54,178 bases of DNA, taken from positions 1-54,178 of the forward strand of contig JAFGHP010000019.1 of the NCBI GenBank assembly GCA_016930055.1, read 5' to 3'. Made by a program: the position numbers and the translations under genes. This stretch comes from Candidatus Bathyarchaeota archaeon (GTDB taxonomy: Archaea; Thermoproteota; Bathyarchaeia; TCS64). Positions within the stretch are counted from its first letter, which is position 1. Each line of letters starts with the position of its first letter. This document shows positions 22,009 through 25,841 of the stretch, piece by piece. The notes under the pieces were generated by a model. The model ran no database searches. It had not been told where the DNA came from and saw only the letters and a list, made by a program, of their open reading frames with translations.

Positions 22009-22323
22009 ATGGTTGAAAAAGCGAGTAAATTAAAAATAACTGTTCTCAGACGTTTTAAACCCGATGAGGTTTTTACTGAACCCCCAATAAATGCTGGAGA
22101 GATGGGCGTTTGTGGAGTGTATAAAGATGGTCAAGAATTTATTGTAGAAGAAAATGGAAGGATGCCTGAAGGCTTTTGTGGATGGGCATGGGATGATATA
22201 AATAAAGTAGTTCAAACACTTCGGTTTAATGGGAATTTCTCATGGTTTAAGGAACCGGGTGTATCTGTGAATTGTTGTACCGATGGTTTAAGACCAGTAA
22301 TGTTTAAGATTGAACGAATCTAA
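22009..22323 (+). CDS. TIGR04076-family protein
   Basis: A 104-residue cytosolic protein matching the TIGR04076 family by its pattern: ITVLRRF near the start, GVCGVYKDGQEFIVEENGRM, PEGFCGWAWDDINKVVQTLR, and the C-terminal VSVNCCTDGLRPVMFKIERI. The conserved cysteines (C40, C62 and a CC pair near 90) suggest metal or redox chemistry, but the function is unknown. A single short gene with an ATG start. Confidence 0.8.
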   Translation: MVEKASKLKITVLRRFKPDEVFTEPPINAGEMGVCGVYKDGQEFIVEENGRMPEGFCGWAWDDINKVVQTLRFNGNFSWFKEPGVSVNCCTDGLRPVMFKIERI

Positions 22324-22380
22324 TATTTTTAAACACTTAATTTACCAAATTTTATATTAATAATACATGTGTTTTGTTTT

Positions 22381-24912
22381 ATGAGTACTAGTATTGTTTC
22401 CTCACCTGAGGATTTTTTTGGTTTTAAATTAGGTTCTGATAAAAAATTAGCTCGTTGGGATAAGATTGTTGAATATTTTTGGCATTTAAATAAATTACCT
22501 ACTGTGAAGGTTCAGGAACTCGGAAAAAGCACTGAAGGCAATCCCTTCATTTTAGCTATTATTTCATCACCTATTAACATTCAAAATCTCGATAGAATCC
22601 GAGAAATTAGTTTAAAATTATCACATCCCCAAAACCTAACTATTTCTGAAGTTAATGATTTAGTGAATGATGGTAAAACCATTGTAAGCATTACTTGTAG
22701 TATTCACGCCTCTGAAGTCGGTGGTACACAGATGTCTTCTGAATTAGCATATGAATTAGCAACAAATGAAGATCCTATTTTCAAGAAGATTAGAGAAAAC
22801 ACTGTATTACTTTTAGTGCCTTCATCGAATCCAGATGGTAACATAATGGTAGTTGATTGGTATAATAAAAACCTAGGAACTGAATACGAAGATAGCCCTC
22901 TACCTTATTTATATCATAAGTACGTTGGGCACGACAATAATCGTGACGCTTTTAATATTACACAGATTGAGTCAAAACATTTAACTAAGTTACTTTACAA
23001 AGACTGGTATCCTCAAGCTCAGATTGATCACCATCATATGGGAAGTTATGGAGCAAGATTCAGCATACCTCCTAATTCTGATCCTATTTATCCTTATCTT
23101 GAACCACTAGTTTTAGCAGAACAGCAACTTTACGGTGGCATGATGCTGGTAGAGTTAGAAGCCACCAAGATGACTGGAGTTGAAACCCAATGCACCTACT
23201 CCCTTGAAGGGGGTCCTTTTTGGAATCATGCTCCTCTAATGCATGGTATTTGTGGGATGTTAACTGAATCTGCAAGTGCAAAATTAGCTACTCCAATTTA
23301 TGTCCATAAAGATCAATTAAGGCCTTCACAACTTGGTAGACCTGAGAATAAACCTCAGATGAATTTCCCACATCCCTGGGAAGGAGGATGGTGGCATCTA
23401 TTGGATGTTGTTAAACAGATTAAAATTGCTTCTATTGCTGCACTTAAGGTAGCATCAAATCATAAAGAACAGATTTTAAAAAACATGTATCTCAAAGCAA
23501 AACACCAAATCGAATTAGGTCTTACAGAACCTCCTTATGCATATGTTTTCACACCAAATCAGAGAGACCGTTTAACTACTTACAAACTTTTAAAGAATCT
23601 ACAAACTGCCGATGTCAAAGTACATCAAGCTGAAGGAGATTTTGAAGCAGAGGGAATATGTTATCCTAAAGGAACTTATGTTATTTTTACTTCACAAACA
23701 TGCAGACCCTACATTCTCCGATTATTAAAATCAGAATTTTATCCTGAAAGTGCTTGGACAAAAAATAAGGATGGTTCAATAATGGCACCTTTTGATTATT
23801 CAACCTTCACACAACAAGAATTTATGGGCGTAAATGTTGTAGAAGTAACACACCCATTAAAAGGAAATTTCAAAGAATGCATTAATATTTCTCCTCCTAT
23901 TGAAACTCCCCAGCGAAGTGATGTTGGTTATATTCTAGATTGCATAGAGAATTTAAACTTTAAAGCAGTAAATAAGCTATTAAAACAAAATATTATAGTT
24001 TATAGGGTTGAAGAAGAACTCGAATTTTCAAATAGGGTTTTTCCAGTAGGTTCTTTTTACATAGCTAATACTCCAGAATTGTATAATATTTTAGAGTATT
24101 TATCCAAGGAATTATCGATTACTTTCCATGCTTTACCCAATAAAGTAGATTTCATATTTAAGGAAATTAAACACAAACGAATAGGATTATACAAACGATA
24201 TTATGGTGGTAATATGGATGAAGGCTGGACAAGATGGCTTTTTGAACAATATGAATATGACTTCAAGAACATTACAGATGCAGATATTAAAGATGGACTT
24301 GGAGAATATGATGTTTTAATCCTCCCAAGTGACTCAACAGCAATGATAACTGGAGAAAAACTTGAGGAATATTACCAGAGAAGAGGAGGAGGTATAGTAC
24401 CAAAATATCCGGAAGAATACCGTAGTGGAATAGGAAAAGAAGGTATAAGCAAAATTAAAGAGTTTATCGAAAATGGTGGAACCGTCATAACTTTAAACAG
24501 AGCTTCTGATTTCGCTATTGAAGAATTAAAAGTGCCAATTACTAATGTTTTGAAAGATTTAAAACTCAACGATTTCCTTTGTCCTGGATCTACATTAAAA
24601 ACAAAATTCGATAATAATCATCCAATAGCTTATGGTATGCCTGAAAATGGTTTAATAGTGTTCAGTAATGGTTCAGCTTTTTCGATAAATCCTAATCCAA
24701 AAGCAGAAAATATTAAAACTGTTGCTACCTTCCCTGAACAACAGATATTAATAAGTGGCTGGCTTGTAGGAGAAAAACACATTCGAGAAAAATCGCCGTT
24801 AGTTGAAGTAAAAATTGGGCAAGGAAAAATAGTTTTATTTGGCTTTTCACCTCAAAATAGAGCACAGACTGATGCTACATTTAAATTACTTTTTAATTCC
24901 ATAACTTCATAA
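22381..24912 (+). CDS. M14-family zinc carboxypeptidase-like protein with glutamine-amidotransferase-like tail
   Basis: An 843-residue protein. The M14 catalytic domain spans about 20-380: zinc ligands in SITCSIHASEVGGTQ (HxxE) and QIDHHHMGSYGARFSIPP, with PSSNPDGNIMVVDWYNKNLG and NNRDAFN as substrate-binding elements, and LTESASAKLATP near the expected catalytic Glu. Residues about 590-840 look like a class I glutamine-amidotransferase/ThuA-like flavodoxin fold (YDVLILPSDSTAMITGEKL, IKEFIENGGTVITLNRAS, GKIVLFGFSPQNRAQT), as in other large M14 proteins of this group. I use the ATG at 22381; a GTG four codons earlier is possible. A TATA-like TTTATATTAA about 25 nt upstream suggests a leaderless mRNA. 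No signal peptide is obvious. Confidence 0.85.
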   Translation: MSTSIVSSPEDFFGFKLGSDKKLARWDKIVEYFWHLNKLPTVKVQELGKSTEGNPFILAIISSPINIQNLDRIREISLKLSHPQNLTISEVNDLVNDGKTIVSITCSIHASEVGGTQMSSELAYELATNEDPIFKKIRENTVLLLVPSSNPDGNIMVVDWYNKNLGTEYEDSPLPYLYHKYVGHDNNRDAFNITQIESKHLTKLLYKDWYPQAQIDHHHMGSYGARFSIPPNSDPIYPYLEPLVLAEQQLYGGMMLVELEATKMTGVETQCTYSLEGGPFWNHAPLMHGICGMLTESASAKLATPIYVHKDQLRPSQLGRPENKPQMNFPHPWEGGWWHLLDVVKQIKIASIAALKVASNHKEQILKNMYLKAKHQIELGLTEPPYAYVFTPNQRDRLTTYKLLKNLQTADVKVHQAEGDFEAEGICYPKGTYVIFTSQTCRPYILRLLKSEFYPESAWTKNKDGSIMAPFDYSTFTQQEFMGVNVVEVTHPLKGNFKECINISPPIETPQRSDVGYILDCIENLNFKAVNKLLKQNIIVYRVEEELEFSNRVFPVGSFYIANTPELYNILEYLSKELSITFHALPNKVDFIFKEIKHKRIGLYKRYYGGNMDEGWTRWLFEQYEYDFKNITDADIKDGLGEYDVLILPSDSTAMITGEKLEEYYQRRGGGIVPKYPEEYRSGIGKEGISKIKEFIENGGTVITLNRASDFAIEELKVPITNVLKDLKLNDFLCPGSTLKTKFDNNHPIAYGMPENGLIVFSNGSAFSINPNPKAENIKTVATFPEQQILISGWLVGEKHIREKSPLVEVKIGQGKIVLFGFSPQNRAQTDATFKLLFNSITS

Positions 24913-25016
24913 TTTTTAAATAAATTAAGATTAGAATATTTTTCTTCTTTTTTTCCCTGTTTTTTATTATTCTTTATTAATGTTGCTTCTAGATTTGTAT
25001 TTATAGGTGTATTCTT

Positions 25017-25841
25017 ATGAATAATGAATTAAGAAGAGAATATATTTCTAAATCACATATAAGTTTTAGTGGGCTTAGAAAATTAAATATTGCTGCAGGG
25101 GCTCTACATTTGATTCAAGGATTAGCTATGTTGTTTTTAGGTTTATTAATTTCTTGGGATAGGGAGATTTATACTTTTTATCTAAAATTTAAAATAGTTT
25201 CTCTAGTTCCTTTCAAGTTTCAAGTATTGCCTGATCCTCAAGTTGTGTTTAAATTAGAATATCTTGGAGTGATTCTTTCATCATTTTTACTCATATCTGC
25301 TGTTGCTCACTTCATTATTGCTTTCTTTAGGAGAACACAATACGAAGAAAATTTAAAGAAAGGGATGAATCCATATCGATGGTACGAATATTCAATCTCA
25401 AGTTCAATAATGTTGGTATTTCTTTCAACTTTTGTAGGTGTTTGGGATTTATGGTCTCTTGTAATGATTTTTGTGTTAAATGCTATGATGATAATGTTTG
25501 GTTATTTAATGGAAAAAATTAATCAATATACAAAAGAAACAGATTGGTCACCGTATATTTTAGGATGTATCTCTGGTTTTACTCCATGGGTAGTAGCAGC
25601 TGCATATTTTATTGCTGCATTAACTTCGACAGAGACTAATCCACCCAACTTTGTTTATCTTTCACTTATAACTTATTTCCTTATGTTCAACTCTTTCTCA
25701 ATTAATATGCTTCTACAGTACAAGGGAATCAGCAAATGGAAAGATTATCTATTTGGTGAAAGAATTTACATAATATTAAGTTTAGTAGCTAAAACGCTAT
25801 TGGCTTGGCTTGTTTTTATTGGTATATATGCTCCTTTCTAA
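25017..25841 (+). CDS. Heliorhodopsin
   Basis: A 274-residue seven-helix protein with the heliorhodopsin pattern. The retinal Schiff-base lysine is K259 in helix 7 (YIILSLVAKTLLAWLVF), and the counterion glutamate is E124 in NPYRWYEYSISSSIMLVFLS (helix 3). Two pocket histidines match the family positions: H31 (GALHLIQGLAMLF, helix 1) and H98 (SAVAHFIIAFF, helix 2). Helices run about 22-46, 77-104, 119-143, 147-168, 178-203, 211-235 and 247-273. A long first loop (47-76) would form the outer cover. The SSS motif and Glu counterion replace the pump triad of type-1 rhodopsins, so a photosensory or enzyme-modulating role is likely rather than ion pumping. ATG start with a weak GGTG upstream. No retinal-synthesis gene is in the window. 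It follows the M14 gene by 104 nt on the same strand. Confidence 0.93.
   Translation: MNNELRREYISKSHISFSGLRKLNIAAGALHLIQGLAMLFLGLLISWDREIYTFYLKFKIVSLVPFKFQVLPDPQVVFKLEYLGVILSSFLLISAVAHFIIAFFRRTQYEENLKKGMNPYRWYEYSISSSIMLVFLSTFVGVWDLWSLVMIFVLNAMMIMFGYLMEKINQYTKETDWSPYILGCISGFTPWVVAAAYFIAALTSTETNPPNFVYLSLITYFLMFNSFSINMLLQYKGISKWKDYLFGERIYIILSLVAKTLLAWLVFIGIYAPF

Follow-up and report, generated by a model that had tools for sequence, protein, structure and literature searches.

A heliorhodopsin of methanogen-type affinity in a Bathyarchaeial genome and a candidate SOUL-family partner

The 54,178-nucleotide stretch of a Candidatus Bathyarchaeota genome analyzed here (the window) encodes a heliorhodopsin (HeR), which family models, structural comparison and a predicted fold confirm as genuine and full-length. 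Our joint reading, to which we assign a probability of roughly 0.6, is that the protein is a true heliorhodopsin serving as a light sensor for photo-oxidative and tetrapyrrole stress, with a SOUL-family protein as the best candidate partner, that its gene was gained horizontally, and that its retinal is scavenged or comes from another route. The host genome (G000) is a MAG of 1.79 Mb from the class Bathyarchaeia, 94% complete and with 4.3% contamination. The window encodes TFB, SMC, several peptidases and subunits of 2-oxoacid:ferredoxin oxidoreductase, a gene content that suits an anaerobe living on peptides and agrees with the anaerobic-looking, peptide-degrading archaeon described in an earlier note on this DNA.

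Identity and retinal pocket of the heliorhodopsin

The open reading frame matched the Pfam model Heliorhodopsin (PF18761) over its full length (E = 9.4e-91; 303.9 bits, cut-off 26.7) as well as the NCBIfam HeR equivalog NF038020 (338.1 bits, cut-off 100), both scores being above the cut-off. All 6 sequence matches in PDB were heliorhodopsins, the top one being TaHeR from Thermoplasmatales archaeon SG8-52-1 (6is6; 2.5e-56), and type-1 rhodopsins were absent among them. The AlphaFold model, based on a 40-row alignment, has a pLDDT of 89.4 and displays seven helices, with the strands of a hairpin (residues 48 to 62 and 67 to 81) between helices A and B. Foldseek returned 10 PDB matches at E ≤ 0.001, exclusively heliorhodopsins, with TM-scores of 0.82/0.90 for TaHeR 6is6, whereas the top type-1 rhodopsin fold was a weaker match (E = 2e-3 versus 6e-18 for HeR; TM-score about 0.5 to 0.6). 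The agreement of family models, sequence matches and fold matches thus upholds the heliorhodopsin identity proposed in the earlier note from the sequence alone, together with its seven-helix layout and its assignment of K259, E124, H31 and H98, which fall on conserved columns and on their TaHeR counterparts (Table 1); no other seven-helix family gave a better match.

Table 1. Features of the heliorhodopsin gene and its upstream region (positions in the window).
Feature	Position	Strand	Basis
Heliorhodopsin CDS, ATG start, 274 aa plus stop	25017..25841	+	Family models, PDB matches, predicted fold
H31 codon, pocket histidine (TaHeR H23)	25107..25109	+	Alignment
A-B loop beta hairpin, residues 48-81; extracellular in known HeRs	25158..25259	+	AlphaFold model
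H98 codon, pocket histidine (TaHeR H82)	25308..25310	+	Alignment; invariant in 40 relatives
E124 codon, Schiff-base counterion (TaHeR E108)	25386..25388	+	Alignment; invariant in 40 relatives
K259 codon, retinal Schiff-base lysine (TaHeR K238)	25791..25793	+	Alignment; invariant in 40 relatives
T-rich tract between M14 peptidase stop and HeR start, possible archaeal terminator	24939..24965	+	Sequence

The retinal pocket is strongly conserved. H98, E124 and K259 do not vary among 40 archaeal relatives, and H31 is present in 39 of them; K259 forms part of an SxxxK signature on helix G, in which S255 and K259 align with S234 and K238 of TaHeR. The window HeR has every one of the 15 residues that make up the 48C12 hydrogen-bond network (PDB 6su3, 6uh3; residue list from PMC9726877), and 13 of the 15 are invariant in the 40 relatives. 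Of the ESL motif on helix C (TM3; defined in PMC9601134), E124 and S128 are kept but the third position is F135 (E-S-F), unlike the L of 48C12; among the relatives, this position is occupied by L (28), I (5), F (4) or V (3), and TaHeR has I, so that the window HeR shares with other HeRs a hydrophobic variant of the motif. In the fold alignment, the window HeR is 42% identical to TaHeR (PDB 6is6, 7u55), which agrees with it in the Schiff-base lysine, the counterion and both pocket histidines but has a shorter A-B loop. The nearest relatives are, however, methanogen and Bathyarchaeia HeRs (56% to 78% identity) rather than TaHeR. Loop charges (14 K/R and 9 D/E in the predicted inner segments, 5 K/R and 6 D/E in the outer ones) favor, by the positive-inside count, an inverted topology with the N-terminus inside.

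The window HeR would accordingly be a seven-helix opsin with its N-terminus inside, in which K259 is expected to carry all-trans retinal. By transfer from 48C12 and TaHeR, light would isomerize the retinal, the Schiff-base proton would pass to the network of E124, H98 and H31, and conformational changes would occur in the A-B loop and on the cytoplasmic side. An alternative role would be that of a light-driven ion transporter or channel adding to the membrane potential, for which the viral V2HeR3, which moves protons in the light, offers a precedent (PMC9448325). Given that the 48C12 network is kept in its entirety, that other HeRs including TaHeR have been reported without ion transport (PMC9385722) and that little would be gained from it by an anaerobe in which no retinal synthesis is known, we consider transport highly improbable and expect a light sensor rather than a pump.

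Distribution, genomic locus and origin of the gene

Among 232 Bathyarchaeia genomes of at least 70% completeness, 38 contained HeR matches (36 of them above the Pfam cut-off); in the host genus HeR was limited to 1 of 6 genomes and in the host family to 3 of 27. A scan of GTDB genomes yielded 58 HeR loci, distributed among Bathyarchaeota, Methanobacteriaceae, Methanosuratincola/Methanomethylicia, Thorarchaeota, Lokiarchaeota, Thermoplasmata and others. The view that such proteins are known from a few archaea, taken in the earlier note, is thus too narrow: besides the Bathyarchaeia they occur in methanogens, Asgard archaea and other groups, and the window HeR adds to a family already published for Bathyarchaeota in 2020, when transcription was reported for the heliorhodopsins of Bathy-6 and Bathy-8, members of the same host class (Pan et al. 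2020, PMC7110647).

In the HeR tree, which covers sequences other than those of Bathy-6/-8 from PMC7110647, the window protein falls within a nine-row clade (SH-aLRT 99) together with HeRs of Methanobacteriaceae, Methanosuratincola, Methanomethylicia (L007 to L013, L030) and one euryarchaeote, with 71% to 78% identity over the full-length protein, whereas HeRs from 2 other genomes of the host family (G017 and G022; 62% to 64% identity) are placed elsewhere. A constrained grouping of the window HeR with these own-family proteins was rejected (p-AU 0.0007). Horizontal acquisition is therefore the simplest reading supported by the tree, the donor being most likely the lineage that also supplied the methanogen copies.

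The locus itself is authentic. Both flanks align with a genome from the same genus (G004) at 69% to 81% DNA identity, and the GC and GC3 contents of the HeR gene are close to those of the neighboring genes, which rules out misbinning of the window contig (C20). The T-rich tract upstream of the gene (Table 1) would make a separate HeR transcription unit possible. The immediate neighbors are an M14 peptidase gene (22369-24912) and a GNAT-OB gene, and we concur with the earlier note that neither is a known partner. The peptidase was rejected as a candidate because its family is expanded in this genome, related sequence being present on 3 other contigs (C23, C81 and C103), and the GNAT-OB gene because its ortholog in G004 stands without HeR, having on the corresponding side genes that read from sequence as NptA-like and PhoU-like. 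No neighbor of the window HeR recurs beside HeR in the closest relatives, none belongs to the recurrent HeR neighbors described below, and neither a transducer nor a fused signaling domain lies beside it.

Several side observations concern individual loci. A TIGR04076-family gene (22009-22323) is located two genes upstream of the window HeR; at a Thorarchaeal locus, HeR is immediately preceded by a gene from that cluster (L034:9557-9883), which may be coincidence. On a contig named Bipolaricaulota, a HeR-like gene is broken across three overlapping reading frames (L062:3048-3929), reflecting gene decay, sequencing errors or misbinning of an archaeal contig. A single-contig Bathyarchaeal genome (G218:C1) carries 2 partial HeR matches (947730-948107 and 631889-632143), possibly decayed copies, and also encodes SOUL, phytoene synthase and CarR-type lycopene cyclase.

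SOUL-family proteins and other recurrent neighbors

The earlier note left the function of heliorhodopsins open, which is better put as several partner-specific functions having been proposed (PMC9529153, PMC9769723, PMC11109279, PMC9448325). The partners suggested for bacterial HeRs comprise glutamine synthetase, photolyase and ABC transporters (PMC9529153, PMC9769723, PMC11109279), and Bulzu et al. proposed protection against oxidative stress on the basis of other neighbors and also recorded UvdE and carotenoid genes in the vicinity of the zinc-ribbon HeRs of Thermoplasmatales (PMC8612252).

Among the sampled neighbors of the 58 HeR loci, the commonest Pfam family was the haem-binding SOUL (PF04832), followed by DUF1722/2-thiouracil desulfurase, pyridoxamine-phosphate-oxidase-like proteins, DUF6512, flavin reductase, UvdE and MsrA. 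We found 11 SOUL genes no farther than 10 kb from HeR, 10 of them at a distance of at most 2.2 kb. Across the Bathyarchaeia, SOUL is encoded in 14 of the 38 HeR genomes versus 5 of the 194 others (Fisher p = 6e-9) and, at the genus level, in 10 of 25 HeR genera versus 1 of 74 others (p = 2e-6), both p-values being too small as relatedness is ignored. Of the 14 SOUL genes in HeR genomes of the class, 10 are separated from HeR by about 8 kb or less. The linkage extends to methanogens, where the methanogen-type loci L007, L008 and L012, from the clade of the window HeR, have SOUL adjoining HeR. The HeR-linked SOULs represent two deeply separated lineages, methanobacterial and Bathyarchaeal, and the linkage state changes nine times on the HeR tree. 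In the main texts of the heliorhodopsin papers searched, SOUL is not mentioned.

Unlike in these methanogens, in the host genome the SOUL gene is on a contig other than that of HeR (C72), where it adjoins a TspO-like gene (L065:2986-4357) and shares the contig with carotenoid genes; it belongs to the SOUL lineage of the host family. A TspO-like gene is also close to SOUL in another genome (G140; L103). Proteins combining DUF1722 with 2-thiouracil desulfurase (YbgA-like) recur beside HeR at loci L020, L025, L026 and L039. In Escherichia coli, the photolyase gene presumably adjoins ybgA.

The gene context in relatives suggests that HeR may warn an anaerobic archaeon of light and hence of photo-oxidative and tetrapyrrole-sensitized damage. 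Across the wider archaeal clade, the best candidate partner would be the SOUL-family protein, a putative haem- or tetrapyrrole-binding protein whose linkage to HeR is observed. Against a sensor working with SOUL stand its location on a different contig in the host genome, its absence from 24 of the 38 Bathyarchaeia HeR genomes and the lack of an adjoining transducer. The 24 genomes without SOUL, the variable HeR context among loci and the published diversity of partners (PMC9529153, PMC9769723, PMC11109279) would agree with HeR being a light sensor for some other lineage-specific partner, such as a peptidase, a transporter or a metabolic enzyme, and the linkage to SOUL being a by-product of shared gene exchange. 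We regard this as unlikely, though less so than ion transport: a by-product would have to span two deeply separated SOUL lineages and repeated changes of linkage state, and the window supplies no alternative partner, its HeR neighbors failing to recur in the closest relatives, the M14 peptidase being multi-copy and GNAT-OB occurring in G004 without HeR.

Carotenoid genes and the supply of retinal

The conservation of the retinal lysine, counterion and pocket network across 40 divergent archaeal relatives leads us to expect that the chromophore is used, which raises the matter of its source. Phytoene synthase (PF00494) was detected in 5 of the 232 Bathyarchaeia genomes, 3 of which encode HeR, and in 7 of 14 control genomes. 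Its co-occurrence with HeR is weak (3 of 38 HeR genomes versus 2 of 194 others, p = 0.03), and the remaining 35 HeR genomes, missing this enzyme, have no known route into C40 carotenoids.

Unlike most HeR genomes, that of the host encodes crtI, crtB and a UbiA prenyltransferase in a row on contig C72 (L065:8496-11671). The first matches the bifunctional desaturase model NF058655 (670 bits, cut-off 640), the second SQS_PSY and the third PRK12875 (300 bits, cut-off 205); we take the last to resemble haloarchaeal prenyltransferases that elongate carotenoids. Misbinning of this contig is unlikely, as its other genes match the same-genus genome G004 at 75% to 76%. The contig terminates just past the 3 genes, inside sequence shared with a tRNA-Leu gene, and the region beyond, reached through an 87-base overlap with contig C60, contains the tRNA-Leu and no obvious carotenoid genes. 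A second crtI-like gene of the host (contig C45; L093:6873-8513) is divergently oriented to a gene reading from sequence like a geranylgeranyl-reductase-type FAD enzyme. In G017, read in the same way, no obvious crtI adjoins the phytoene-synthase-like gene.

A search of the host genome for CarR-type lycopene cyclase, whose controls worked, gave no match. For Brp/Blh (PF15461), no match exceeded the cut-off in the 232 genomes of the class and 33 further HeR genomes, an absence that is suggestive, the controls being silent too; the sole weak match (G257, 19 bits) was below the cut-off. With neither enzyme found, the carotenoid of the host is probably acyclic and the retinal would come from uptake or another route. 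Having seen no carotenoid or retinal genes in the window, the earlier note had suggested that retinal may be taken up or made elsewhere and that the rest of the genome be searched for its synthesis genes. A carotenoid gene cluster does lie on another contig, but neither the cyclase nor Brp/Blh was matched.

It could be argued that the protein works without retinal, or that it is a recent and rarely functional acquisition whose host provides no chromophore. The 35 HeR genomes without phytoene synthase, the lack of CarR-type cyclase and Brp/Blh matches in the host, and a patchy distribution shaped by horizontal transfer would agree with such a scenario, yet a lysine, counterion and network as invariant as those seen in the 40 relatives (13 of 15 network residues) would be unexpected if retinal were unused. 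Moreover, a bacterium without known retinal genes nevertheless contains and makes retinal (PMC7734400), and uptake may suffice. We thus consider a chromophore-free protein improbable and favor a retinal-binding sensor whose retinal would be scavenged or made by a route other than those searched for.

A broader possibility, which we advance tentatively and hold to be more doubtful than the reading for the window HeR, is that the archaeal HeRs of presumed strict anaerobes form, with SOUL and additionally UvdE, MsrA and YbgA-like proteins, a light-response module in which a retinal-based sensor controls the handling of free haem and porphyrins, the retinal being scavenged or obtained independently of oxygen. 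The function of heliorhodopsins is still debated, largely from the neighbors of bacterial copies. The locus described here points to a large archaeal HeR clade in presumed anaerobes, with a strong statistical link to SOUL and a near-total lack of phytoene synthase. Should retinal be bound to these HeRs in vivo, its source would be either external or an unknown, possibly oxygen-independent, route.
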